Source of the DNA: Devosia chinhatensis
GTDB taxonomy: Bacteria > Pseudomonadota > Alphaproteobacteria > Rhizobiales > Devosiaceae
Assembly: GCF_000969445.1 (NCBI RefSeq)
Contig: NZ_JZEY01000054.1
Location: 1,984,001-2,048,000 of the forward strand
Length of the DNA stretch: 64,000 nucleotides
Reading direction: 5' to 3'
The translations under genes and the position numbers were made by a program. Below the pieces are notes generated by a model. It did not search any database. It was given only the letters and a program-made list of their open reading frames with translations, and was not told where the DNA came from. This document shows positions 1-17,107 of the stretch, one piece after another; the first letter of the stretch is position 1, and each line of letters opens with the position of its first letter.

Positions 1-521
1 TCTCGGTTGGACAGGCCGACACAGGCTGCGCCACCCGAACCCGTATTGGCCACACCGACCCCACCATTGCCGTTTCCGGGACCATTCCCGCTGCCATTAC
101 CGGGACCATTCCCGTTTCCGGGGCCATTGCCATTTCCGTTCCCCGGACCATTGCCGTTGCCGTTGCCGGGATTGCCGATACCCACCCCAACATCGACAAG
201 GCTGTCACCGCCGACACCAACACCCACCCGGGCGTTGTTGTTGAGCAGCCGCACATCGGCATCGACAAGGCCGGACGACCCACCCGAGCCCACCGTTGCC
301 GAACCGAGATTGCCATTGCCGATATTTGCATCGAGGACTTGATTGTCGCCACCAAGACCCAGGTTGACGAGGCCCGACGTGCCCGCATCTCCGGACCCGA
401 TCGTAACCAGCGCCTTGTCATCCTGACCGCCGATAATCCCGAGAAGTGACTGCGCCGAAGCGGGAGTCAACGTGGCTGCCACGAGAGCGGCAGAAAGCAC
501 TGTTGTAGTAAAAAGCTTCAT
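1..521 (-). CDS. Secreted Gly/Asn-rich repeat protein (3' end outside window)
   Basis: Reading from the ATG at 521 the minus strand stays open to the window edge (173 codons seen). A strong ribosome site (AAAGGAGA) lies just upstream. Residues 1-24 form a typical Sec signal peptide ending in ASA before QSLLG. The mature part is rich in Gly, Asn, Val and Ser, with runs such as VGVGVGGD. From about residue 116 it becomes a low-complexity array of GNGNGP-type units. No catalytic domain is recognisable. It resembles in style the secreted protein at 14662-15234 (a leucine/glycine stretch right after the signal peptide, then glycine-rich beta-like repeats). Role unknown; a surface or matrix protein is only a guess. 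The C-terminus is missing, so family assignment is not possible. Confidence 0.75.
   Translation of the reverse strand, partial: MKLFTTTVLSAALVAATLTPASAQSLLGIIGGQDDKALVTIGSGDAGTSGLVNLGLGGDNQVLDANIGNGNLGSATVGSGGSSGLVDADVRLLNNNARVGVGVGGDSLVDVGVGIGNPGNGNGNGPGNGNGNGPGNGNGPGNGSGNGPGNGNGGVGVANTGSGGAACVGLSNR
61..170 (-). repeat. Degenerate short tandem repeat coding for GNGNGP units
   Basis: The plus strand shows repeated units of the form CCATTGCCGTTTCCGGGA or CCATTCCCG(C/T)T. On the coding minus strand they give Gly-Asn pairs broken by Pro (for example GPGNGNGNGPGNG). Third positions vary between units, so the array is older than a recent slippage event, but copy number may still differ between strains. 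Confidence 0.7.
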
Positions 522-996: not shown

Positions 997-1923
997 CTAG
1001 GCGTCGAACGCGGATTGGAGCGCCTGAATCGCCTTGATCGCTGCGGAGGCCCGGTTTTCTACACCCAGCTTGGAATAGACTTGTTCAAGATGCTTGTTCA
1101 CAGTCCGTGGGCTGAGGCCAAGTATATCGCCGATATCGCGGTTCGATTTGCCGCGCGAGATCCAGAGAAGAACTTCGCTCTCGCGTTGCGTCAAGCCGAA
1201 GGCCTGACGCAGGCCAGGTACCTGACCTTCTTGTTGCAACGCACCCAGACGAAACAGATGTTCGTCCCCGGCAACGGTGCCGAGAAAGGAGAATTGAAGC
1301 CCCGGTCCATTGGCGGTCATCTCGAAGCTGGCGCCGACCGGCACCGGAGGTCCCGATTGTGCCAGCCACGTCACGAAGGCGTGGGACATGGCATTCTGCA
1401 GATTGGAATCCATGCCGGACCGCTCAAGCAGCCGGTTCGCCTGGGGCGTCGACCACAGGACTGTCCCGTCGGCCGCGAAGGCAACCAGGTGGCGCCCGGC
1501 CGCATCGAGCGCGATGCGCGCGCTCTGCGCCCGCCTTGCATTGGCAAGATGCACTCGAATGCGCGCCCGCAGTTCATCGAGATTGATCGGCTTGGACAGG
1601 TAGTCCACCCCACCGCTCTCGAGAGCATGGACGATATGCTCGGTTTCGGTCAGCCCGGTCATGAAGATGATCGGGACATGGGTGAGCTGTGGCATTGCAT
1701 TCATGCGGCGGCTGGTCTCGAACCCATCCAGCCCGGGCATGATCGCATCCATGAGCACGATATCGGGCGTAACGCGCTGCACAATATTGATGGCAGCTTC
1801 GCCCGACCTGGCGACAAGCACCGTAACGCCCGCATCTTCAAGAGCCGAGGTGAGAAAGCCAAGCGATTCGGGAGAATCGTCGACGAGTAGGACGATATCC
1901 TGCTCTTGCTCAATTCTGCTCAT
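997..1923 (-). CDS. LuxR/NarL-type response regulator
   Basis: 308 residues. Residues 1-125 are a receiver domain with the acidic pair D15-D16, phospho-acceptor D59 (VLMDAIMPG), T89 and K111. Residues about 130-230 look like a PAS-type middle region. Residues about 240-305 form a LuxR-type helix-turn-helix (LTQRESEVLLWISRGKSNRD, then SPRTVNKHLEQVYSKL). The start overlaps the last 14 nt of the upstream sensor-kinase gene, so the two are probably translationally coupled and form a cognate pair. Divergent position from urtABCDE suggests the system controls urea uptake, but this is inferred. A receiver plus PAS-like plus LuxR layout is larger than the usual 200-220-residue NarL regulators. Confidence 0.9.
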   Translation of the reverse strand: MSRIEQEQDIVLLVDDSPESLGFLTSALEDAGVTVLVARSGEAAINIVQRVTPDIVLMDAIMPGLDGFETSRRMNAMPQLTHVPIIFMTGLTETEHIVHALESGGVDYLSKPINLDELRARIRVHLANARRAQSARIALDAAGRHLVAFAADGTVLWSTPQANRLLERSGMDSNLQNAMSHAFVTWLAQSGPPVPVGASFEMTANGPGLQFSFLGTVAGDEHLFRLGALQQEGQVPGLRQAFGLTQRESEVLLWISRGKSNRDIGDILGLSPRTVNKHLEQVYSKLGVENRASAAIKAIQALQSAFDA

Positions 1924-4900
1924 GGCTTACGCGCTCCAGCGTCTCGGCATAGGCTTCGAAGTCGAATTGGTCCAGATGGCGGCGCAGAATATCCACGAAT
2001 GGTCCGTTGTCAGGATCGGTCGCCAGCTGGGCCAGTTTCGCCTCGATACCCCGCACATGACCGATCTGACCCAGACTGGCGAGATCGCGCAGGTGCTCCG
2101 CCCCCGGAGACCGCATCGCGCCTGTTGCCTGTTCTGTTGCCTGCGTCTCTTCATAAATCCAGTCCAGCCTCAATTGCGCGCCGATCTTGTCGAGCAATTG
2201 GTTGAGATCGAAGGGCTTGGCGAGGCTATCGGAGTGACCCGCGTCAGCGCCCGTGGGGTTCGCTCCGTCACCGATATTGGCCGAGAGCATGATGATCGGG
2301 GCGTTAACGCCCATGCTGCGCAGGGATTGCACCAATTGCCAGCCATTCATCCCCGGCATCCGGATATCGATGAAATAGAGATCCATGTCGGCCATGCCTG
2401 GCATGGCGAGGCATTTTTCCCCGCTCGCAACGTCGAAGACGGCAAATCCGAGTGGAGCAAGCATTTCGCGCATCAAGCCACGGTGGTCGTCATTGTCATC
2501 GACCACCATGATGCTGCGCGACGCTCCGCTATATCCCTTTACCGGTTGCGCTGCCGCCACGCGCTGGGCAGGCCGTTCCACCTTCGAGAGCATCAGGCGC
2601 GTCTGGAAACGAGTACCCCTGCCCGGTGCGCTCGCCACAATTATTTCCCCGCCCAGCGTTTCAGTCAGCAGTTTGGTGATCGTCAGCCCCAGGCCCAGGC
2701 CCGGTGTGAAGCGGTTTTTCTCGGCCTGCCCGCGCACGAAGGGTTCGAAGATATGCGGCAGGTCCTCCTCTCCAATGCCGCTGCCGCTATCCTCGACGGT
2801 GAAAGTGGCAACCTGCATGCGATAAGCAACCTCGAAGCGTACCTCCCCCGCTGAGGTGAACTTGATGGCGTTGGACAGCAGGTTGACCAGGATCTGCCGG
2901 AGGCGCTTCTCGTCGGTTCGCACATAGGTGGGCAAAGCGGCTGCTCGGCTATGCCGGAAGCCAAGCCCCTTGGCTTCCGCCTGCATCCGGAACATATCCA
3001 CCAGCTGGTCGAGAAAGTCCTGGATATTGACTTCGCCGGTATAGACCTGCAGTCGTCCCGCTTCGATCTTGGAAATGTCGAGCAGGCCGTCGATCAGTCC
3101 TGACAGATGCTCGGCACTGCGCCGGATGACCTGTACGGAACCACGACGGTGCTCCGGCACCGCAGCGTCGCGCTCCAGAATTTGCGCATAACCCATCACC
3201 GCATTGAGCGGCGTGCGCAATTCGTGGCTCAGCCCGACGACATAGCGCGACTTGGCCTGGTTGGCGGCCTCTGCCTTTTCCTTGGCCCGCTGCAATTCGG
3301 CATCGGTTCTCGAATGGGCATCGATTTCCTTGAGCAGCAGCGTGTTCTGTCGCGTGCTTTCTTCCTCCGCGACGAGCCGGCTGTCATGCGCAAGCACGAG
3401 GAACCAGGTCATCACCCCCGCCGCCACCGCAAAGACGAAGAACACAACGAGCAGCGTTCCTCCCACGACATCGGATGTATGCGGGGCAGACCGGCTGGCA
3501 AAATAATAGATGAGGCCCAGTATGCTGGCGAGGATAGCCGAGGCTATGCCCATGGACATGCCATAGCGGCCAAGCCGGGTCTGCAATTTGTCGATGGCCC
3601 ATTGCGGCAGCACGCTGGCCGCCACCGCATGAGTCTGGGCCCGGAAATGCGCCTTGGGCTTGCACATGTCGTGGCAGCGCGCGTCGAGCGAACAGCAGAG
3701 CGAGCAGATCGGCGCCGCATAGGCAGGACACCACGCCATGTCTTCCGGCTCGAACGGATGCTCGCAGATCGAGCAGGTCAACGACGTTTTGCTTGCCCAG
3801 GCCTTGCGCGGCTTGCGCGCCAAATAATACCGTCCCTTGGTCGCCCACGCTATGGTCGGGGAGGCCACGAAGCAGACGATCAAGGCGATGTAAGGGGCCA
3901 AAGCGGCTGCCATCTCGCCGAATGCGCCAAAATGGGCAATCAGCGCAATGCTCGCCGACAGGAGCATCGACCCGACACCGACCGGATTGATGTCATAGAG
4001 ATGGGCGCGCTTGAATTCGATGCCCGGCGGGGCGAGGCCGAGCGGCTTGTTGACGAAGAGATCGGCCGAGATCGAGCAGAGCCAGGCCATGGCGATGATG
4101 GAGAAAATGCCCAGCGTTTCCTCGAGCAGACGATAGATACCCAGTTCCATCAGCAGCAGTGCAATGGCCACGTTGAACAAAAGCCACACGACGCGGCCCG
4201 GATGGCTATGGGTCAGCCGCGAGAAGAAGTTCGACCACGCCAACGAGCCTGCATAGGCATTCATGACATTGATCTTGAGCTGGCTGATAACGACGAAGAC
4301 CGCCATCAGCATCAGCGCCAGAAACTCGTTGGGGATCATGTAGCCGAAGGCCACGGCGAACATGTAGCCCGGCTCGGACGCATGCTCCGGTGACACTCCC
4401 GAGGAGAGGGCGAGAAACGCCAGAAACGACCCCGCAATCAGCTTGGGCGCACCCACCACGACCCAGCCGGCACCGGCCAGAAAGATCCCCAGTTTCTGCC
4501 GCCATTTCGGTGCGCCTTCCGCCGGCAGGAAGCGCAGGAAGTCCACCTGCTCGCCGATTTGCGTCATCAGCGCAAGGATCACCGCGGAAGCGGCTCCGAA
4601 CTTGGCTACGTCGAAGGCCGCGATCGATCCCGCAGCGCCCTCGGGCCGTCCCAACCCGTTGAATGCGCGCCAGAGATCGAATTTCTCCCAGTCCATGAAG
4701 GCGATGAAGAAGAACGGCAGGATGTTGAGTACGATCCAGAACGGCTGCGTCAGCAATTGAAAGCGGCTGATCATGCGAATGCCGTGGGTCACGAGCGGGA
4801 TGACCGCCACGGCGGAAATGATGTAGCCGATCCAGAGCGGCAGTCCGAACGCCAATTGCAGCGCGCTCGCCATGATCGATGCTTCGATGGCAAAGAGGAT

Positions 4901-5278
4901 GAAAGTGAAGCTGGCATAGATCAGCGAGGTGATGGTCGAACCGATATAGCCAAAGCTCGCGCCGCGCGTCAGCAGGTCTACATCCACGCCATGACGTGTC
5001 GCATAGCGCGCGATGGGGACGCCCACGAGCAGGATGGCGATCGATGCCACCAGAATGGCAATCAGCGCATTCGTCGTGCCGTAGGAGAGCGTGATGGCCC
5101 CGCCTATGGCCTCAAGGGCAAGGAACGAAATGGCTCCGATCGCGGTCTGCGAGATTCTGTCATTGGAAAATCGCCGCGCCGACTTGGCGGTGAAACGCAG
5201 CGCATAATCTTCCAGCGTCTGGTTCGCCACCCAGCGGTTATATTCTCGCCTGATCGGGATGATCCGCTGCCGCGCCAT
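1910..5278 (-). CDS. NCS1-permease / hybrid histidine kinase fusion sensor
   Basis: One uninterrupted frame of 1122 residues. Numbering starts at the ATG at 5278, which has AAGG 9 nt upstream; an ATG at 5308 is an alternative. Residues about 40-490 form a many-helix membrane domain resembling NCS1 nucleobase/allantoin/hydantoin:cation symporters. A cytosolic Cys cluster follows (C502, C505, C517, C525, C528, C529, C535, C539), then two more membrane helices (about 575-640). The kinase core has HisKA H685 (GLSHELRTPLNAV), N-box N799 (NLLSNAIKFT), and G boxes DSGSGIG and GLGLGL. A receiver follows with D971 (FIDIRMPG) and K1021. About 80 C-terminal residues end with no clear Hpt histidine. It is likely a membrane sensor that uses a transporter-like domain to read a nitrogen compound and phosphorylates the overlapping LuxR-type regulator. 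The ligand is unknown. Confidence 0.88.
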   Translation of the reverse strand: MARQRIIPIRREYNRWVANQTLEDYALRFTAKSARRFSNDRISQTAIGAISFLALEAIGGAITLSYGTTNALIAILVASIAILLVGVPIARYATRHGVDVDLLTRGASFGYIGSTITSLIYASFTFILFAIEASIMASALQLAFGLPLWIGYIISAVAVIPLVTHGIRMISRFQLLTQPFWIVLNILPFFFIAFMDWEKFDLWRAFNGLGRPEGAAGSIAAFDVAKFGAASAVILALMTQIGEQVDFLRFLPAEGAPKWRQKLGIFLAGAGWVVVGAPKLIAGSFLAFLALSSGVSPEHASEPGYMFAVAFGYMIPNEFLALMLMAVFVVISQLKINVMNAYAGSLAWSNFFSRLTHSHPGRVVWLLFNVAIALLLMELGIYRLLEETLGIFSIIAMAWLCSISADLFVNKPLGLAPPGIEFKRAHLYDINPVGVGSMLLSASIALIAHFGAFGEMAAALAPYIALIVCFVASPTIAWATKGRYYLARKPRKAWASKTSLTCSICEHPFEPEDMAWCPAYAAPICSLCCSLDARCHDMCKPKAHFRAQTHAVAASVLPQWAIDKLQTRLGRYGMSMGIASAILASILGLIYYFASRSAPHTSDVVGGTLLVVFFVFAVAAGVMTWFLVLAHDSRLVAEEESTRQNTLLLKEIDAHSRTDAELQRAKEKAEAANQAKSRYVVGLSHELRTPLNAVMGYAQILERDAAVPEHRRGSVQVIRRSAEHLSGLIDGLLDISKIEAGRLQVYTGEVNIQDFLDQLVDMFRMQAEAKGLGFRHSRAAALPTYVRTDEKRLRQILVNLLSNAIKFTSAGEVRFEVAYRMQVATFTVEDSGSGIGEEDLPHIFEPFVRGQAEKNRFTPGLGLGLTITKLLTETLGGEIIVASAPGRGTRFQTRLMLSKVERPAQRVAAAQPVKGYSGASRSIMVVDDNDDHRGLMREMLAPLGFAVFDVASGEKCLAMPGMADMDLYFIDIRMPGMNGWQLVQSLRSMGVNAPIIMLSANIGDGANPTGADAGHSDSLAKPFDLNQLLDKIGAQLRLDWIYEETQATEQATGAMRSPGAEHLRDLASLGQIGHVRGIEAKLAQLATDPDNGPFVDILRRHLDQFDFEAYAETLERVSHEQN

Positions 5279-5408
5279 TCGCCTAGGCCTTAACCAATCG
5301 AGCAACATGCTCAAAAAATCACCACAACCTCTTTACCATCTCTGATGGCGAAATCACGCGGTTTTTCAGGCTCTTCGCTGCACCTGATGAAACTGTGCGA
5401 CATGTGGC

Positions 5409-5424
5409 TACGTCAATCGACGTA
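5409..5424. promoter_or_regulatory. Inverted repeat TACGTC-N4-GACGTA, candidate operator
   Basis: A perfect 6-bp inverted repeat (TACGTCAATCGACGTA) lies in the 232-bp region between the sensor-kinase gene and urtA, 87 nt before the urtA start. Size and symmetry suit a dimeric LuxR/NarL-type regulator, and the gene next door encodes one. Binding is inferred. Confidence 0.45.
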
Positions 5425-5510: not shown

Positions 5511-6809
5511 ATGTTCAAATTCAGCGCCAAGCGCGCTCTGCTCGCCGCCGCTTTCGCTGGCAGCGTCTGCCTGCCGATTACCTCGGTCATGGCGCAGGAC
5601 GACACCATCAAGGTCGGCATCCTGCATTCGCTTTCCGGCACCATGGCCATTTCCGAGACCACTCTGAAGGACACGATGCTGTTCCTGATCGAGCAGCAGA
5701 ATGCCAAGGGCGGCGTGCTCGGCAAGCAGCTCGAACCGGTCGTGGTCGATATTGCTTCCGACTGGCCGCTGGCCGCCGAGCTGGCTCGCCAGCTCATCGA
5801 AGTCGATGGTGTCGATGCGGTCTTTGGTTGCTGGACCTCGGTCTGCCGCAAATCGGTCCTGCCGGTCTTCGAAGAGCTCAATTCCCTGCTCTTCTACCCC
5901 GTTCAGTACGAGGGTGAGGAAAGCCAGCGCAACGTCTTTTACACCGGCGCGTCTCCGAACCAGCAGGCCATTCCCGCCGTCGACTATCTGATGAACGAAG
6001 AAGGCGTCGAGCGCTGGGTTCTGGCTGGCACGGACTATGTCTATCCGCAGACCACCAACAAGATTCTCGAGCAATACCTGCTCGACAGCGGCGTTGCGCC
6101 TGAAGACATCATGATCAACTACACGCCCTTCGGTCATTCCGACTGGCAGACGATCGTCTCCGACATCAAGGCCTTCGGCTCGGCCGGCAAGAAGACCGCC
6201 GTGGTCTCGACCATCAACGGCGACGCCAACGTGCCGTTCTACCGCGAATTGGGCAATCAGGGCGTTGCCGCCGAAGACATTCCGGTTGTCGCGTTCTCGG
6301 TGGGTGAAGAAGAGCTCTCGGGCTTCGACACGACGCCGCTGGTCGGTCACCTGGCCGCATGGAACTACTTCATGTCGGTCGAGACGCCGGAAAACGAAGC
6401 CTTTATCGCTGACTGGCAGGCCTTCATCGGCTCCGAAGACCGCGTGACCAACGATCCGATGGAAGCGCACATGATCGGCTTCAACCTTTGGGTGAAGGCC
6501 GTCGAGGCTGCCGGCAGCACCGATGCCGACGCCGTCATCGACTCCATCGTCGGCTTGGAAACCCCGAACCTGACCGGTGGTATCGCCACCATGCTGCCCA
6601 ACCACCACATCACCAAGCCGGTCCTGATCGGTGAGATCCAGGACGATGGTCAGTTCTTCGTAGTCTGGGAAACCGAAGATCTCGTGCCCGGTGATGCCTG
6701 GTCCGATTTCCTGCCGGAAAGCGCCATGCTCGAGGCCGACTGGACCGCCCCGATCAACTGCGGCAACTACAACACCGAAACCCAGACCTGCGGCGCGACT
6801 GCGCAGTAA
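5511..6809 (+). CDS. urtA: Urea ABC transporter, periplasmic urea-binding protein
   Basis: 432 residues, the normal UrtA size. The ATG at 5511 was chosen because AGAGGGA precedes it and it opens a signal peptide (residues 1-25, ending VMA before QDD). The mature protein begins IKVGILHSLSGTMAISE and carries family segments such as GCWTSVCRKSVLPVFE and FYPVQYEGEESQRN. It binds urea in the periplasm and delivers it to UrtB/UrtC. First gene of urtABCDE; the 157-nt gap to urtB holds two strong palindromes that may keep urtA transcript more abundant than the rest. Regulation by the divergent two-component pair is inferred. Confidence 0.96.
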   Translation: MFKFSAKRALLAAAFAGSVCLPITSVMAQDDTIKVGILHSLSGTMAISETTLKDTMLFLIEQQNAKGGVLGKQLEPVVVDIASDWPLAAELARQLIEVDGVDAVFGCWTSVCRKSVLPVFEELNSLLFYPVQYEGEESQRNVFYTGASPNQQAIPAVDYLMNEEGVERWVLAGTDYVYPQTTNKILEQYLLDSGVAPEDIMINYTPFGHSDWQTIVSDIKAFGSAGKKTAVVSTINGDANVPFYRELGNQGVAAEDIPVVAFSVGEEELSGFDTTPLVGHLAAWNYFMSVETPENEAFIADWQAFIGSEDRVTNDPMEAHMIGFNLWVKAVEAAGSTDADAVIDSIVGLETPNLTGGIATMLPNHHITKPVLIGEIQDDGQFFVVWETEDLVPGDAWSDFLPESAMLEADWTAPINCGNYNTETQTCGATAQ

Positions 6810-6915: not shown

Positions 6916-6966
6916 TTGGGTGGGGCCCCTCACCCACCAATCCAGAACCACAAGGACGCCATAGCC

Positions 6967-8580
6967 ATGACCACCCTCCGCGCTCTTCGCCTGGTGCTTC
7001 TGGCCCTGCCGTTCCTGCTGATCTCGATGCAAACGGCCAGGGCACAGGAAGCCGACATACCCGCGCTGATCCAGGCCATGGGCGAAGCCAACCTTCGCGA
7101 ACTGGGCCAGATCGTCACCGATCTCGCCAGCACCGGCGATGCCGCAATTGTTCCCGCCCTGCAGGCCCTGGCAGACGGCAACCTGTATCAGGACGACAGC
7201 TCTGGCGCCGTGGTCATCCAGCGGGGCGCGAGCCATCTCGATCCGCTGACCGGCGAAGCCGTCGATCTCGGATCCGATGCCGACCTGTCGCGTATCCGTG
7301 TCAACAACAGCCTGCGGCGCGATATTGCCTCCGCCCTCGCTGGCATGACGCTGATGAGCGACAACCCCGGGACGCGCCTCCGGGCGGCCAACGGATTCCT
7401 GGCGAGCCCCGATCCGGCCAATATGCCGCTGCTCGACGAGGCCATCGCGGTCGAAACCAATGCCGAGGTGCTGCGCGCCATGCAGACCGCACGCGCCCTC
7501 ACGATCCTCCGCGACGACGACGCCGGGATCGAAGACAAGATTGCCGCCGTTCCTCTGATAGCCTCAGGTGCCGGACGTGGCGCCATCACCATCCTCACCA
7601 GCGCACTCAACACCGCGCCGGAAGAGGTTCGCCCCGCCATCCAGTCGGCACTTTCAGGCCTTGAACAGGAACGCGCGGTCTGGGGGGCTTTGCAGAATGT
7701 GTGGTTCGGCATTTCGCTAGGTTCGGTGCTGCTGCTGGCCGCCATCGGCCTTGCTATCACCTTTGGCGTCATGGGCGTCATCAACATGGCGCATGGCGAA
7801 ATGGTCATGCTGGGCGCCTATACGACCTTTATCGTGCAATTGACGATCCGTCAGAACTTTCCCGGCCTGCTCGATTATTCGCTGCTGATCGCCCTGCCCG
7901 CCGCCTTCTTCGTCACCGGGGCCATCGGCATCGGGATCGAGCGCGGCATCATCCGCTGGCTCTATGGCCGGCCGCTCGAAACGCTCCTGGCCACTTGGGG
8001 CATTTCGCTGATCCTGCAGCAATCGGTGCGCTCGATCTTCGGACCCACCAACCAGATGGTGATCGCCCCGAGCTGGATGAGCGGCTCTTTCGAATTCTAT
8101 GGCCTGTCCATAACCTATGGCCGTTTCTGGATCGTGATCTTCGCCGCCATCGTTTTTGCCCTGCTGCTGGTCGTGCTCAATCGCACCGCATTGGGCCTGC
8201 AGATGCGCGCCGTGACGCAGAATCGGCGCATGGCCTCGTCCATGGGCATCCGCACACCCTTCGTCGATGCCATGACCTTCGGCCTTGGCTCGGGCATTGC
8301 CGGCCTTGCCGGCGTGGCACTCACCCAGATCGACAACATCTCGCCGAACCTGGGACAGAACTACATTATCGACAGCTTCATGGTTGTGGTGTTCGGCGGT
8401 GTCGGCAATCTCTGGGGCACGCTGGTCGGCGCCCTGACGCTAGGCGTCGCCAACAAGTTTCTCGAACCCTATGCCGGAGCGGTTCTGGGCAAGATCCTGA
8501 TCCTGGTGCTGATCATCCTCTTCATTCAGCGCCGGCCGCGTGGCCTCTTCGCGCTCAAGGGCCGGGCGGTGGAGCAGTGA
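6967..8580 (+). CDS. urtB: Urea ABC transporter permease UrtB
   Basis: 537 residues. The ATG at 6967 opens a signal peptide (residues 1-25, ending ARA). A periplasmic region of about 200 residues follows (ALIQAMGEANLREL and after), a known extension of proteobacterial UrtB. The C-terminal 290 residues are the LivH-type permease, starting near GALQNVWFGISLGSVL, with segments ITFGVMGVINMAHGEMVMLG and VVVFGGVGNLWGTLVGA. It forms the inner-membrane channel for urea with UrtC. The 166-nt gap before urtC contains another C/G palindrome. Confidence 0.95.
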   Translation: MTTLRALRLVLLALPFLLISMQTARAQEADIPALIQAMGEANLRELGQIVTDLASTGDAAIVPALQALADGNLYQDDSSGAVVIQRGASHLDPLTGEAVDLGSDADLSRIRVNNSLRRDIASALAGMTLMSDNPGTRLRAANGFLASPDPANMPLLDEAIAVETNAEVLRAMQTARALTILRDDDAGIEDKIAAVPLIASGAGRGAITILTSALNTAPEEVRPAIQSALSGLEQERAVWGALQNVWFGISLGSVLLLAAIGLAITFGVMGVINMAHGEMVMLGAYTTFIVQLTIRQNFPGLLDYSLLIALPAAFFVTGAIGIGIERGIIRWLYGRPLETLLATWGISLILQQSVRSIFGPTNQMVIAPSWMSGSFEFYGLSITYGRFWIVIFAAIVFALLLVVLNRTALGLQMRAVTQNRRMASSMGIRTPFVDAMTFGLGSGIAGLAGVALTQIDNISPNLGQNYIIDSFMVVVFGGVGNLWGTLVGALTLGVANKFLEPYAGAVLGKILILVLIILFIQRRPRGLFALKGRAVEQ

Positions 8581-8653: not shown

Positions 8654-8746
8654 ATTGGCGCACCCCTCTTGTTCGTTTTCCTCTTTAGGGAAAGGTGGCG
8701 CGCAGCGCCGGATGAGGATGCTTCTCAAAGCGACTGGATATTACCC

Positions 8747-9946
8747 ATGCTGACCCAAGCCCTGTTCCGCGCACTCGACAAGAAGGCGATCTGGGTCATC
8801 GCGATTTTCCTGGCTGTGGCCATCCTTGTGCCGATGGCCAATCTGCTGATCCCGCCCGGCCAGTTCGGCCATGTCCCGACCTATCTGGTTTCGCTGATGG
8901 GCAAGTATCTGGCCTATGCCATCCTGGCGCTCGCACTCGACCTGGTCTGGGGCTATTGCGGCATTCTTTCCCTGGGGCATGGCGCTTTCTTTGCCTTGGG
9001 CGGCTATGCCATGGGCATGTATCTCATGCGTCAGATCGGCAGCCGCGGCGTCTACGGCAATCCCAATCTTCCCGACTTCATGGTGTTCCTGAACTGGCGC
9101 GAACTCCCCTGGTACTGGCAGGGCTTTGACAATTTCTGGTTCGCCATGGCCATGGTGGTTTTCGTGCCGGGGCTTCTGGCCTTCATCTTCGGCTTTTTCG
9201 CCTTCCGCAGCCGCGTCACTGGCGTCTATCTCTCCATCATCACCCAGGCGATGACATTCGCGCTGTTGCTGGCCTTCTTCCGTAACGACATGGGCTTTGG
9301 CGGCAATAACGGGCTGACCGACTTCAAGGACATTCTCGGCGTTCCCGTTCAGGCCCAGACCACCCGCGTCACCCTTTTTGCGGCAACTGCGATCACCCTG
9401 GCCCTTTCGGTTCTGGTCTGCTCGGCCATCGTCAATTCCAAGCTGGGCAAGGTCATGGTGGCGGTCCGCGACGCTGAAAGTCGCACCCGCTTCCTCGGCT
9501 ATCGCGTTGAATATGTGAAGCTCTTTGCCTTTACCGTATCGGCAATCATGGCCGGCATCGCCGGGGCACTTTACGTGCCGCAGGTCGGCATCATCAATCC
9601 TGGTGAATTCGATCCTGCCAATTCCATCGAGGTGGTCATCTGGACCGCTGTGGGCGGTCGCGGCACCCTGATCGGCCCCATCATCGGCGCCATCGTGGTC
9701 AATCTGGGCAAGTCCTGGTTCACCACCACCCTGCCCGAGCTCTGGCTCTTTGCGTTGGGTGCGCTCTTCGTCTTCTCGACGCTTTTTCTTCCAAAGGGGA
9801 TTGTCGGTCTCTGGAAACAGCTGCTCGGCCGGCGCCGCAAGCCTGTCGACCCGCCGCCATCGACGCCGCAGCAATCTGCCGACATGGAAAAAGGCGAAGA
9901 CCCGGCCACCTTTGATACCGGCATCCAAACCCGGCCAGCGGAGTAA
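8747..9946 (+). CDS. urtC: Urea ABC transporter permease UrtC
   Basis: 399 residues, LivM-type permease. The ATG at 8747 opens MLTQALFRALDKK and leaves a normal family length. About ten membrane helices are visible; family segments include LVWGYCGILSLGHGAFFALG near residue 65 and the loop TAVGGRGTLIGPIIGAI. The C-terminal tail is a charged, Pro-rich cytosolic stretch. It pairs with UrtB to form the urea channel. It is followed 5 nt later by urtD, so the last three genes are tightly coupled. Confidence 0.95.
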   Translation: MLTQALFRALDKKAIWVIAIFLAVAILVPMANLLIPPGQFGHVPTYLVSLMGKYLAYAILALALDLVWGYCGILSLGHGAFFALGGYAMGMYLMRQIGSRGVYGNPNLPDFMVFLNWRELPWYWQGFDNFWFAMAMVVFVPGLLAFIFGFFAFRSRVTGVYLSIITQAMTFALLLAFFRNDMGFGGNNGLTDFKDILGVPVQAQTTRVTLFAATAITLALSVLVCSAIVNSKLGKVMVAVRDAESRTRFLGYRVEYVKLFAFTVSAIMAGIAGALYVPQVGIINPGEFDPANSIEVVIWTAVGGRGTLIGPIIGAIVVNLGKSWFTTTLPELWLFALGALFVFSTLFLPKGIVGLWKQLLGRRRKPVDPPPSTPQQSADMEKGEDPATFDTGIQTRPAE

Positions 9947-9951
9947 AGGCG

Positions 9952-10701
9952 ATGAGCACTGCGCAGGATACCATGCTCTACCTCAACGGCGTCTCGGTCG
10001 CCTTTGACGGGTTCAAGGCCATAAACAACCTCTCGATCATTGTCGGTCCGGCCGAAATGCTGGCCATTATCGGCCCGAACGGCGCAGGCAAGACAACGAT
10101 GATGGACATCATCACCGGCAAGACCCGCCCCGATGCGGGAGACGTCCTCTTCGATGGTCGAACCGACCTGACCCGGCTCGACGAAGCTGCGATTGCCAAT
10201 CTCGGCATTGGTCGCAAGTTCCAGAAGCCGACGGTGTTCGAGAGCCATACCGTCTGGGACAACCTCGAAATGGCGCTGAAAAAGCCGCGCGGCGTCTTTT
10301 CGACGCTGTTCTATACGGCCGGCCGGGACGACGTCGTCCGCATCGAAGAAATCCTCGATACGGTGCGCCTGCGTCATCGTCAGGACGAGCTCGCGGCCAA
10401 TCTGAGCCATGGCCAGAAGCAATGGCTTGAGATCGGCATGCTGCTTGCGCAGGACCCCAAATTGCTCCTTGTCGACGAACCCGTGGCGGGCATGACCGAC
10501 AGCGAGACCGAGGAAACGGCAAAACTGCTGCGCGAGATTTCCCAGACCCGCTCCGTTGTCGTCGTCGAACATGACATGAGCTTTGTACGCGAACTCGGCT
10601 CGCGCGTCGTCTGCCTCGCCGAGGGCGCCGTACTGGCCGAGGGAACGCTCGATCAGGTCAGTGGCAATCCCGTCGTCATCGAAAGGTATCTTGGCCGATG
10701 A
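9952..10701 (+). CDS. urtD: Urea ABC transporter ATPase UrtD
   Basis: 249 residues, LivG-like ATPase. Walker A is GPNGAGKTT near residue 43; LSHGQKQWLEIGMLL is the signature region, and the Walker B segment is LLLVDEPVAGMTD. The LSHGQ form with Trp after QK is typical of UrtD. It powers urea import together with UrtE. Its stop overlaps the urtE start by 4 nt (ATGA). Confidence 0.95.
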   Translation: MSTAQDTMLYLNGVSVAFDGFKAINNLSIIVGPAEMLAIIGPNGAGKTTMMDIITGKTRPDAGDVLFDGRTDLTRLDEAAIANLGIGRKFQKPTVFESHTVWDNLEMALKKPRGVFSTLFYTAGRDDVVRIEEILDTVRLRHRQDELAANLSHGQKQWLEIGMLLAQDPKLLLVDEPVAGMTDSETEETAKLLREISQTRSVVVVEHDMSFVRELGSRVVCLAEGAVLAEGTLDQVSGNPVVIERYLGR

Positions 10702-11402
10702 GCACTGCTCTCACGATTTCCAACATCGATCTCCATTATGGCGCGGCCCAGGCTCTCAAGCGCATCTCGATTACCTGCGCTCCTGGTCGGATCACCGCCG
10801 TTCTGGGCCGAAATGGGGTCGGCAAGTCATCCACACTGCGCGCGGTCACCGGCATCAATCACATCTCGGCAGGAGAGATTGCCTTTGGCAGCGACACCCT
10901 GCGCAAGGCGCCACCCTATAAGCGCGCCCGCCTGGGCATCGGATATGTGCCCCAGGGTCGCGAAATCTTCCCGTTGTTGACGGTCAAGGAAAACCTGGAA
11001 ACCGGTTATGCCGGCCTGTCCCGCGGCGATCGCAACGTACCGGCATATATTTTTGAACTCTTTCCCGTGCTCAAATCCATGCTCAACCGACGCGGCGGCG
11101 ACCTCTCCGGAGGCCAGCAGCAGCAATTGGCGATCGGACGAGCGCTTGTCACCCGGCCCAAGGTGCTGGTGCTCGATGAGCCGACCGAAGGCATTCAGCC
11201 CTCCATCATCAAGGACATCGGCCGGGCGCTACAGTTTCTGCGCGACGAAAAGGGAATGACGATCCTGTTGGTCGAGCAATATCTCGATTTTTGCCGGGAG
11301 ATAGCCGACGACATCTATGTCATGGATCGCGGAGAAATCATGCACAACGGACCAGCTGCCGACTTGGACCGTGCCGACGTCCGGCAACATCTCATGGTAT
11401 GA
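10698..11402 (+). CDS. urtE: Urea ABC transporter ATPase UrtE
   Basis: 234 residues, LivF-like ATPase. Walker A is GRNGVGKSS, the signature is DLSGGQQQQLAIGRAL, and Walker B is VLVLDEPTEGIQPSII. The ATGA overlap with urtD shows translational coupling. It is the last gene of the urt operon; a perfect hairpin follows 5 nt after the stop. Confidence 0.95.
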   Translation: MSTALTISNIDLHYGAAQALKRISITCAPGRITAVLGRNGVGKSSTLRAVTGINHISAGEIAFGSDTLRKAPPYKRARLGIGYVPQGREIFPLLTVKENLETGYAGLSRGDRNVPAYIFELFPVLKSMLNRRGGDLSGGQQQQLAIGRALVTRPKVLVLDEPTEGIQPSIIKDIGRALQFLRDEKGMTILLVEQYLDFCREIADDIYVMDRGEIMHNGPAADLDRADVRQHLMV

Positions 11403-11858: not shown

Positions 11859-12698
11859 TTGAAATTTGCTGTCCCTGAAAAATTCCCGGCCGCGAGGCTC
11901 CAGCGCGCACGTGGCATCGGGCGGATCAGCACCAAGCAGCGCGACAGCCGCACCGTTCTCGATACGCTCTTCCAGGAAGGCTGCAGCAAGATCCGCCTGC
12001 CCAATACCCATTCTTCAGCGCTCGAGGCTGTGCTCATCAACACTGCCGGGGGCATCACCGGGGGCGATCACCTGGCATGGGCCGCGGACGTCGCAGCCGG
12101 CGGACGTCTGGTGCTAACGACCCAGGCCTGCGAACGCAGCTACCGCTCTACCGGCGATGTCGCCCAGGTCCATATCGATCTCAAGGTCCGGGCCGGTGCG
12201 CATCTCGACTGGCTGCCCCAGGAGACCATCCTTTTTGAAGCCAGCAAGCTGCACCGCTGGCTGAACGTGGATCTCGAGGAAGCGGCGACCTTGACTGCCA
12301 TCGAGGCCGTTCTTCTCGGGCGGGATGCCATGGGCGAAGATGCATACGATGCGATCCTGCGCGACAATTGGCGGGTCCGGCGCAACGGTCGCCTCATCCA
12401 TGCGGAGGCCACCAGCCTCTCCGGGCAGGGCAACGAGCGCGATGCGCCATCCCTTCTCGCCGGCAACAAGGCCTTTGCCAGCATTCTGCATATTGCGGCC
12501 AACGACGACGCTGCTGCCGCCCTCGCCACTCGGATTCAACAACGTCTGCCCGACGGCGCCATCGCGCTCAGCGTCAACGGACCGCGTCTCGTCATACGCG
12601 CCATGGCTGAAACTGGGCTTGCATTGCGACGTATGATCGTTCCAACTCTATATGAACTGACAGGCGCGGGCAGCTTGCCCCGTCTCTGGCATCTCTAG
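11859..12698 (+). CDS. ureD: Urease accessory protein UreD
   Basis: 279 residues. The start is a TTG, chosen because AAGGA stands 8 nt upstream and the resulting N-terminus fits the family; no suitable ATG lies nearby. Family segments include [12 protein letters not shown] near residue 60, [10 protein letters not shown], and [15 protein letters not shown]. UreD binds the urease apoenzyme and, with UreF and UreG, forms the complex that loads nickel into the active site. It opens the ureDAB group; ureA starts 11 nt after its stop. Confidence 0.93.
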
Positions 12699-12709
12699 GA
12701 TCAAGCCCG

Positions 12710-13012
12710 ATGAACCTGACCCCGCGCGAAAAAGACAAGCTTCTCATTGCCATGGCGGCCAATGTCGCCCGTCGGCGCCTGGAGCGCGGCGTCAAGCTCA
12801 ATCACCCCGAAGCCATTGCACTGATCACCGATTTCGTCGTGGAGGGCGCTCGAGATGGGCGCGCCGTCTCCGAGCTCATGGAAGCGGGCGCCCATGTCAT
12901 CACGCGCGAGCAGGTCATGGACGGCATTGCCGAGATGATTCACGATGTACAGGTGGAGGCCACCTTCCCCGACGGGACAAAGCTGGTCACCGTGCACCAG
13001 CCCATCCGCTAG
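12710..13012 (+). CDS. ureA: Urease gamma subunit
   Basis: 100 residues, the exact family length. It begins [20 protein letters not shown] and carries [16 protein letters not shown] and EARDGR-like segments ([11 protein letters not shown]) typical of UreA. It is a structural subunit of the cytosolic nickel urease (UreABC)3. It lies 31 nt before ureB. Confidence 0.97.
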
Positions 13013-13883: not shown

Positions 13884-14501
13884 TTAGCTGTTGCTCTCGT
13901 TCGTATAGATCGTCAGCGAGCCATCCTGGTCGTTGCTCAGGGCAACAACATCAGAGATGTCGATCGAGTTGGCCGACAGCAGATCGTTGAGGGCCGAATT
14001 GTTGCTCACGGCATCCTGAAGAGCCGAGATGTTGCTGGCATTGCCGTTAAGGGCATCGTTCAGCGCATTGGCATCGAAGTTTGCCACGTCGGCGATATCG
14101 ACCACGCGAACATCGCTGACATCGGAGATGCCGCTGATATCGCCGTTACCGGCTTCGATCATCGACAGGACATCCGAGAAGTTGGCAACATTGCCGACCG
14201 AGCCGACATCACCAAGCGTGCCCGAAGCATCGCCACCGACATCACCGGAATTGGTCACGCCGCCGATGGTGCTGTCGAGCGTGTCAGTGACGGTATTATT
14301 GAGCGTGTCGCCCACAGTACCGTCGACAGTGCTGTTCACCGTGTCATTCACGGCATCGACGGTGCCATCGACCGTAGTGGTCACGGTATCGAGAGTATCA
14401 CCAAGAATATTGGTGCTGTCACCGCTCTGCGCATAAGCAACAGCAGAAGTCAGCGAAAGGGCAGCAACAGAACTAATAAGAACCTTATGGAAAGCACGCA
14501 T
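13884..14501 (-). CDS. Secreted Asp/Asn/Thr/Val-rich repeat protein
   Basis: 205 residues. The ATG at 14501 has a GGAGGA ribosome site, while an upstream in-frame ATG would place that site inside the gene. Residues 1-25 form a signal peptide ending AYA before QSG. Residues about 35-75 are degenerate repeats (TVDGTVDAVNDTVNSTVDGT). The rest is rich in D, N, S and G with DVSDV/ADVANF-like motifs. No Cys and no known domain. It is strongly acidic. It lies opposite to the urease genes between ureB and ureC. Function unknown; a surface or periplasmic calcium-binding or matrix role is a guess from composition. Confidence 0.75.
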   Translation of the reverse strand: MRAFHKVLISSVAALSLTSAVAYAQSGDSTNILGDTLDTVTTTVDGTVDAVNDTVNSTVDGTVGDTLNNTVTDTLDSTIGGVTNSGDVGGDASGTLGDVGSVGNVANFSDVLSMIEAGNGDISGISDVSDVRVVDIADVANFDANALNDALNGNASNISALQDAVSNNSALNDLLSANSIDISDVVALSNDQDGSLTIYTNESNS

Positions 14502-14661
14502 GGCTTCCTCCATTTAATTATTTATTAACGAAACCTTGGCGGTTCGGGGAGGAAAACAACTTCAAAAGCGGTTCGTTCCAATTTTAACGACGCCCGCTGC
14601 GCTAATAAGTGTTAGTTTCGAAACTGCATTTTCGTTTAAAATCAAAGAGTTGCGACCGACA

Positions 14662-15234: not shown

Positions 15235-15397
15235 GTTGGAACTCCGCTTGTGTCGGCGGACCAACGGGTCGTTCGTGAAGCGGTTCCGAAATCGCTGGAG
15301 ACTGGGCGCAAAGGCATGATCCGGCCTTGCCAGCCTTGCGGACAATAAGCCAATGTCACACCGGGAAGCATCTGCCGCGCGCATCACGGGACACACC

Positions 15398-17107
15398 ATG
15401 CCAGCACGTATCTCACGCGCAACCTATGCCGACATGTACGGCCCCACGACCGGCGACAGGGTCCGCCTGGCCGACACCGAATTGTTCATCGAGGTCGAGA
15501 GGGACTTCACTACCTATGGTGAAGAGGTCAAGTTCGGCGGCGGCAAGGTCATCCGCGACGGCATGGGCCAGTCACAGCGCACCCGTGCGCAAGGTGCCGT
15601 CGACACCGTCATCACCAATGCGCTGATCGTTGATCATACCGGCATCTACAAGGCCGACATCGGACTGAAGAACGGCGTGATCGCCGGCATTGGCAAGGCT
15701 GGCAATCCCGATACACAGCCAAACGTGGATATCATCATCGGCCCATCCACCGAGGCGATTGCCGGCGAAGGCAAGATCATCACCGCCGGCGGCATGGATG
15801 CCCACATCCACTTCATCTGCCCTCAGCAGATCGAAGAAGCCCTGATGAGCGGCGTCACCACCATGCTCGGCGGAGGCTCGGGCCCCGCTCATGGCACCCT
15901 CGCCACCACCTGCACCGGCGCCTGGCACATCGAGCGCATGATCGAGAGCTTCGATGCTTTCCCGATGAACCTGGCCCTTGCCGGCAAGGGCAATGCCGCC
16001 GTCCCGGCGCCGCTCGAAGAAATGATCCTCTCGGGCGCCTCCGCGCTCAAGCTGCACGAGGACTGGGGCACGACGCCCGCCGCCATCGACAATTGCCTGT
16101 CCGTCGCCGACGCCTTCGACGTCCAGGTGATGATCCACACCGATACGCTCAACGAGAGCGGCTTCGTCGAAGATACGGTCGGCGCCTTCAAGGGCCGCAC
16201 CATACACGCCTTCCACACTGAAGGCGCGGGTGGCGGGCACGCTCCCGACATCATCAAGGTCGCGGGCCTGCCCAATGTCATCCCGTCCTCGACCAACCCC
16301 ACCCGCCCTTACACGGTCAATACGATTGCCGAGCATCTCGACATGCTCATGGTCTGCCATCATCTCGACCAGTCCATCCCCGAGGATGTGGCCTTTGCCG
16401 AAAGCCGGATCCGCAAGGAAACCATCGCGGCCGAAGACATCCTGCATGATATGGGTGCCTTCTCGGTCATCTCCTCGGACAGTCAGGCCATGGGCCGCGT
16501 CGGGGAAGTGCTGATCCGCACCTGGCAGACCGCAGACAAGATGAAGCGCCAGCGGGGTCGCCTGCCCGAGGAAAAGGGCGATAACGACAATTTCCGCGTC
16601 CGCCGCTACATCGCCAAATACACGATCAATCCCGCCATCGCACATGGGCTCTCCACCCATATCGGTTCAGTCGAGGTGGGCAAGCGCGCAGACCTTGTGC
16701 TGTGGAACCCTGCCTTTTTTGGCATCAAGCCGGAAATGGTCCTGCTCGGCGGCTCCATCGCCGCCGCTCCGATGGGTGATCCAAACGCCTCCATCCCCAC
16801 CCCGCAACCCATGCATTATCGTCCCATGTTCGGTGCCTACGGCAAGCTCGTGAGCCGCTCCTCGGTGACCTTCATTTCCCAGGCCGCGCACGATGCCGGC
16901 CTGCGCAACCGCCTCGGCGTCGAAAAGCAATTGCTGCCGGTGTTCAATACCCGCGGGGGCATCGGCAAGGCGTCAATGATGCTCAATACGGCAACGCCCC
17001 ATATCGATGTGCATCCCGAAACCTATGAAGTGCGCGCTGACGGGGAATTGCTGACCTGTGAGCCGGCGACGGTGCTTCCCATGGCCCAGCGCTACTTCCT
17101 GTTCTGA
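15398..17107 (+). CDS. ureC: Urease alpha (catalytic) subunit
   Basis: 569 residues, the usual UreC length from the ATG at 15398 ([20 protein letters not shown]). The nickel ligands are visible: HIHF for the first His pair, the carbamylated Lys in [12 protein letters not shown], His in [10 protein letters not shown], His in [14 protein letters not shown], and Asp in [10 protein letters not shown]. The flap Cys-His pair is [13 protein letters not shown]. The enzyme hydrolyses urea to ammonia and carbamate in the cytosol. Its stop overlaps the start of the next gene by 1 nt. It is separated from ureAB by an oppositely oriented two-gene block. Confidence 0.98.

Follow-up and report, generated by a model that had tools for sequence, protein, structure and literature searches.

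An NCS1-headed hybrid histidine kinase beside the urea uptake genes of Devosia chinhatensis, a candidate transporter-derived receptor for urea

In the hexose-phosphate receptor/kinase pair UhpBC, a transporter-like protein serves as the receptor of a histidine kinase and the response regulator, UhpA, is of the LuxR type, as in the family described here; UhpC, however, belongs to the MFS and is a polypeptide of its own, unlike the fused NCS1 head reported below. Aliphatic amidase genes are controlled in response to short amides by AmiC/AmiR, as is proposed here for kinases linked to amiE, but that system comprises a soluble amide receptor and an antiterminator, with no kinase. To our knowledge no dedicated bacterial urea-sensing kinase is known, and no description of one was found in the literature searched. 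In the SLC5/STAC kinases CbrA, CrbS (MxtR) and RpuS, a transporter-family domain is likewise fused to a histidine kinase, and these proteins are linked to acetate, pyruvate and histidine genes. CrbS, itself a hybrid kinase, works with a LuxR-family regulator whose site of action is an inverted repeat (PMC5715377; PMC9100948).

The window analysed here is a stretch of 64,000 nucleotides from Devosia chinhatensis (contig NZ_JZEY01000054.1, positions 1,984,001 to 2,048,000). It encodes a kinase that resembles CrbS in being a hybrid with a LuxR-family partner, but differs from the SLC5/STAC kinases in having an NCS1 head, an eight-Cys module with two extra helices where STAC would be (no Pfam domain was found in this linker, the comparison with STAC being made through Pfam search only), and relatives linked to urea and amide genes. 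This appears to be a new sensor type among the known transporter–kinase fusions and the family is apparently undescribed, the current annotation of its members going no further than 'ATP-binding protein' or 'hybrid sensor histidine kinase'. No description of an NCS1-headed kinase family was found in the open-access literature searched; one may exist elsewhere. An uncharacterised kinase and LuxR pair beside fmdA/urtABCDE has been recorded in Ectopseudomonas guguanensis (PMC13296017).

Architecture of the locus and identity of the kinase head

Read from its ATG, the kinase gene encodes 1122 amino acids (Table 1); translation could also start from a TTG at position 5314, but the ATG agrees better with the alignment of relatives. 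The first-pass annotation had described a single frame joining a permease region, eight Cys residues, two helices, a kinase and a receiver, and this was confirmed by ORF analysis, Pfam, hhalign and hydropathy, the last placing the hydrophobic helices after the Cys cluster at about residues 576–594 and 610–628. Pfam detected the C-terminal half alone (HisKA 3e-17, HATPase_c 9e-27, receiver 2e-21), in which both phosphoacceptors, His685 and Asp971, are in place, and with the adjacent GerE-containing regulator all the features of a hybrid kinase with a LuxR-type partner were present. As the same domain order recurs across Pseudomonadota, this architecture is not a product of chance. An AlphaFold run on 66 close relatives gave a model too poor for use (pLDDT 51.6, pTM 0.45).

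The kinase and regulator genes overlap by 14 bp, and urtABCDE and the urease genes are divergent from this pair, an overlap and the divergent urtABCDE having been noted at first pass; UrtA, UrtE and UreC all exceed their NCBIfam cut-offs. Two other coding regions of the window were observed. A small, probably secreted protein with NTVDGTV-type repeats is encoded at 13884–14513, between ureB and ureC and on the opposite strand, and at the edge of the window (1–520) a coding region with Pro/Gly-rich repeats, antisense to an ORF at 7–342, probably encodes a repeat-rich secreted protein.

Table 1. Features of the Devosia chinhatensis locus (window coordinates).
Feature	Position	Strand	Evidence
LuxR/NarL-type response regulator (receiver, Asp59, and GerE)	997–1923	-	ORF, Pfam, residue check
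NCS1-headed hybrid sensor histidine kinase, 1122 aa	1910–5278	-	ORF, Pfam, hhalign
Kinase receiver domain, phosphoacceptor Asp971	2183–2512	-	Pfam, residue check
HATPase_c catalytic domain	2588–2917	-	Pfam
HisKA dimerisation/phosphoacceptor domain, His685	3056–3253	-	Pfam, residue check
Two extra transmembrane helices, about residues 571–630, sensor-to-kinase joint	3389–3568	-	Hydropathy
Eight-Cys cluster, residues 502–539, probable zinc-binding module	3662–3775	-	Invariant in 96/96 relatives
NCS1-type transporter-like sensor domain, residues 1–490, 12-helix region	3809–5278	-	hhalign, Mhp1 pocket mapping, invariance
Palindrome TACGTCAATCGACGTA, proposed binding site of the LuxR-type regulator	5409–5424	.	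Sole exact genome copy
urtA, urea ABC transporter substrate-binding protein	5511–6809	+	TIGR03407, 536 bits, over cut-off
urtB permease (start approximate)	6961–8580	+	ORF, operon order, tblastn matches in urt loci
urtC permease (start approximate)	8690–9946	+	ORF, operon order, tblastn matches in urt loci
urtD ATPase	9952–10701	+	ORF, operon order, tblastn matches in urt loci
urtE ATPase	10698–11402	+	TIGR03410, 326 bits, over cut-off
Urease genes ureD and ureA	11859–13012	+	ORFs by sequence resemblance; conserved neighbours
ureC, urease alpha subunit	15353–17107	+	TIGR01792, 973 bits

Residues 1–490 matched no Pfam model, PF02133 included, in the window protein or in 22 relatives; NCBIfam likewise gave no NCS1 match for the head, and a PDB sequence search with the head profile gave no match. 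Because these libraries missed the head, profile–profile comparison was used. A profile of 22 family members, compared by hhalign with an alignment of 19 bona fide NCS1 proteins, gave a probability of 99.3% (E 3.1e-20) over 425 columns. An SLC5 head was ruled out, with no Pfam match to PF00474 and an hhalign probability of 0.2% against an SLC5 alignment. A search with the head retrieved two free-standing proteins (L173, E 8e-23; L242, E 2.5e-46), both of which pass the PF02133 cut-off. From this contrast and these relatives, the head is therefore of the NCS1 type and not that of a CbrA-type SLC5 fusion. The region-by-region domain search thus failed for the head in Pfam but succeeded by profile–profile comparison, and the NCS1-like assignment made at first pass was right. 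At the level of sequence profiles, homology to NCS1 is seen across the whole transporter core, so that the head would share the fold of Mhp1 (hydantoin permease) and CodB (cytosine permease), while being too diverged from these PF02133 transporters for Pfam and, unlike them, fused to a kinase.

Family neighbourhoods and the intergenic palindrome

The head occurs in 59 of the 249 genomes sampled from the order and in 54 of the 398 from the phylum, and relatives are encoded by 561 genome stretches. It also matches 526 plasmid records, 342 of them from Klebsiella, and a scan of viral contigs found no relatives. The typical member is a hybrid of 1100–1200 amino acids followed directly by a LuxR-type regulator, which is co-conserved downstream of the hybrid kinases. 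Members of a smaller group are about 890 amino acids long, lack the receiver and have different regulators; in L165, L166, L167, L168 and L220 such kinases lie beside fmdA, an AmiS/UreI-like gene and fmdB, and the LuxR one gives way to an OmpR-like regulator together with a second protein that contains a receiver. A natural 'headless' sensor was also observed, a 618-aa family kinase without the NCS1 domain (L243, 8857–10713, on contig 6 of genome G507), which retains the kinase, the receiver, both helices of the pair and a remnant of the Cys cluster and adjoins a LuxR-type regulator, not urea genes.

Among 96 representative loci, two (L135 and L174) are cut by a contig edge, hence 94 have informative flanks, and all 94 adjoin urt/ure, fmdA or amiE. 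This is the opposite of what the first-pass annotation had named as counter-evidence, namely homologs unlinked to nitrogen genes. The neighbourhoods comprise urt and/or ure; fmdA and fmdB with a urt-like ABC operon; amiE; and fmdA with an AmiS/UreI-like gene and fmdB. Here fmdA was named by NF045496 and amiE by a curated model, and the AmiS/UreI-like gene, which matched no curated model, from sequence only. The curated model gives the name UrtA to the ABC operon next to fmdA as well, although identity to Devosia UrtA is only 35–40%. Of the 80 nearest named loci 79 carry urt genes, the remaining one being cut at a contig edge, and in five loci (L231, L236, L237, L240, L241) the kinase lies beside urease genes with urt not within reach. 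Four genomes (G447, G467, G387, G596) encode two paralogs each, one by fmd and the other by ure/urt. In a quick tree of the heads, made without bootstrap, urea linkage must have changed at least three times on well-supported branches; the complete set of neighbourhood labels takes 8 changes, compared with 38.6 when shuffled. By this tree, the urea-linked members are at least three separate groups among the amide-linked ones.

A dyad search of the regions upstream of the kinases found the palindrome TACGT-N6-ACGTA, of which the 3.5-Mb Devosia genome holds one exact copy, between the kinase gene and urtA. It occurs upstream of 42 of 92 kinases, with 0 occurrences in 30 sets of dinucleotide shuffles; the other 50 upstream regions lack the exact form, among them those of the kinases that adjoin urease genes but no urt. 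Its density in the 700 bp upstream of the kinase is ~107 times that elsewhere in the loci. Ten palindromes lie away from the kinase, and of the nine inspected most stand just before urtA or fmdA (L127, L208, L207, L213, L214), those in L215 and L218 overlapping an over-long fmdA reading frame and those in L126 and L209 having no gene assignment. The consensus, ATACGTCGATTGACGTA, is identical in urea and formamide loci. In the kinase–urtA intergenic region a sigma-70 scan gave no site, and the single-strand fold was unremarkable. Judged by its sequence and placement, the palindrome fits the mark expected of a LuxR-type regulator of urt, and because regulator and palindrome are co-inherited we infer that the adjacent regulator binds it.

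In L214 (at 15424), L207 (at 17471) and L213 (at 681) the copy before fmdA is a second one, in or near the urt-like operon, which suggests an internal promoter under the same regulator. A full kinase–regulator–urt-like–formamidase cluster is also carried by a resistance-type IncFIB plasmid of Klebsiella pneumoniae (NZ_MH745929; L301, 3900–14234), with the palindrome at L301:9870 and a regulator that is unlisted in the PLSDB gene table, yet encoded in the DNA. The Devosia locus has a counterpart on pSymB of Sinorhizobium meliloti 1021, with the regulator, a divergent urtABCDE, a kinase whose sensor domain shows 73% identity and an exact palindrome 107 bp upstream of urtA.

Pocket residues, Cys module and a free-standing relative

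The pocket was mapped on a MAFFT alignment of the family with Mhp1 and CodB; on TM1, TM3 and TM8 hhalign gave the same register. In Mhp1, Asn318 and Gln121 hydrogen-bond the hydantoin amide (PMC4195764). Asn318, on TM8, is kept as Asn340 in all 91 kinases compared (the four urea groups and the fmd/ami class), the Gln121 position is occupied by an invariant Glu132, and that of the stacking Trp117 by Leu or Phe128. Ser312 and Thr313, the sodium-site residues of Mhp1 on TM8, correspond to Lys335, also invariant, and Ile336, so that the sodium-site Ser/Thr of NCS1 is not kept. Glu132, Lys335 and Asn340, the proposed pocket and former sodium site, are as invariant among the relatives as the eight Cys. 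A lysine in the sodium site suggests that the kinase head is sodium-independent; loss of the aromatic Trp would fit a ligand without a ring, and Glu132 would fit an amide N–H donor.

What the substrates of urease, formamidase and amidase have in common is the H2N-C(=O)- group. Among the ligands listed at first pass, urea (with small-amide analogs) is favoured and allantoin, hydantoin or a nucleobase are not, the neighbours being urt/ure, fmdA and amiE. Such neighbours indicate the regulated pathway and not the sensed molecule, and ammonia or a nitrogen-status signal may be alternatives. No clean set of residues separating urea-linked from amide-linked kinases was found in the family alignment; positions 326, 400 and 549 alone shift in at least three urea lineages, none convincingly, and position 339, beside Asn340, is Met in the alphaproteobacterial urea group only.

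The eight Cys lie at residues 502, 505, 517, 525, 528, 529, 535 and 539 (C-x2-C-x11-C-x7-C-x2-C-C-x5-C-x3-C) and are invariant in 96 of 96 relatives. Free-standing NCS1 relatives (L173 and the Acinetobacter protein below) bear a CxxC...CxxC tail at the equivalent place, without a kinase, which argues that the module came with the transporter and was then elaborated, and for the same reason zinc is preferred over a redox or metal input. The simplest reading of the sequence is a structural zinc site that would couple the permease domain to the two extra helices, although the module may also sense redox. The cluster reported at first pass is therefore real, but the redox or metal input suggested for it is less likely than a structural zinc site derived from a transporter tail.

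A plasmid of Acinetobacter johnsonii (NZ_CP140004) carries, at L300 5663–7270, a free-standing NCS1 'allantoin permease' (WP_052024140), which is the first gene before ureEFGJDABC and is 43% identical to the kinase head over residues 18–532. It shares the pocket residues Glu, Lys and Asn and half of the Cys cluster, but has no kinase and terminates inside the cluster with 4 of the 8 Cys. This protein is a candidate single-component urea permease. With L242 as the root, a tree places it on a long branch as the sister of all the kinase heads (support 97); this position, together with its place at the head of a urease operon, suggests that the sensor arose from an NCS1 urea permease.

Proposed mechanism and alternative explanations

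Taken together, we consider it likely that the Devosia protein is a transporter-derived receptor kinase for urea, with relatives for formamide or other short amides, that activates urt via the adjacent regulator. The NCS1-type pocket would bind urea through Asn340 and Glu132 and would close as in NCS1 transporters, without sodium because Lys335 fills the former sodium site; the head could be a pure receptor or a proton-coupled carrier. The movement would reach the DHp helices by way of the Cys module and the extra helix pair, altering autophosphorylation of His685. Phosphate would then reach the LuxR-type regulator, the fused receiver acting as a relay or phosphate sink, and the regulator, at the palindrome in the shared intergenic region, would activate urtABCDE and probably also its own operon.

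It is possible, though we give it less credence, that the protein is a working urea/amide transporter with a flux-measuring kinase, a transceptor like CbrA, which transports histidine (PMC13022988). The free-standing relative with the same Glu, Lys and Asn and its urease operon would agree with this, but most loci encode a dedicated ABC transporter alongside, and the kinase is mostly a single copy beside it. That the NCS1 domain senses allantoin, hydantoin or a nucleobase, urea uptake being induced as a downstream consequence, seems unlikely: although characterised NCS1 proteins bind hydantoins and nucleobases and the standalone L173 adjoins hydantoinase-like genes, the kinases are surrounded by genes for urease, the urea ABC transporter, formamidase and aliphatic amidase and by none for allantoin, hydantoin or pyrimidine pathways, and the stacking Trp of Mhp1 is replaced. 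It is quite unlikely that the kinase reads nitrogen starvation, ammonia or a redox/metal state via the Cys cluster, with the NCS1 domain as an anchor only. Eight invariant Cys in a cytosolic stretch and the existence of the headless kinase would favour such an input, but the pocket residues are equally invariant, and the cluster is not specific to signalling since kinase-free NCS1 relatives have the Cys tail. Finally, that the kinase and regulator genes lie next to urt by chance and control other targets is very improbable, for although some urt loci lack the kinase and the family is in 59/249 genomes of the order, linkage holds at every informative locus across the phylum and the palindrome lies between the kinase and urtA.

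For the receptor-kinase family as a whole, we see an even chance that it was built once from an NCS1 urea/amide permease by acquiring Lys in the sodium site and turning a zinc tail into a coupling module, and that operons for urea, formamide and acetamide across Pseudomonadota then received the regulator–palindrome pair on several occasions. The family, found in roughly an eighth to a quarter of sampled genomes, would supply a dedicated urea-sensing kinase, of which no bacterial example is known to us, and NCS1 would join SLC5 as a transporter fold turned kinase receptor. Paralog pairs serving different pathways in one genome make it testable how a pump evolved into a sensor and how the change from amide to urea came about. 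For Acinetobacter urease operons a candidate NCS1 urea permease is indicated, and proteins annotated just as 'ATP-binding protein' or 'hybrid sensor histidine kinase' would gain a name.
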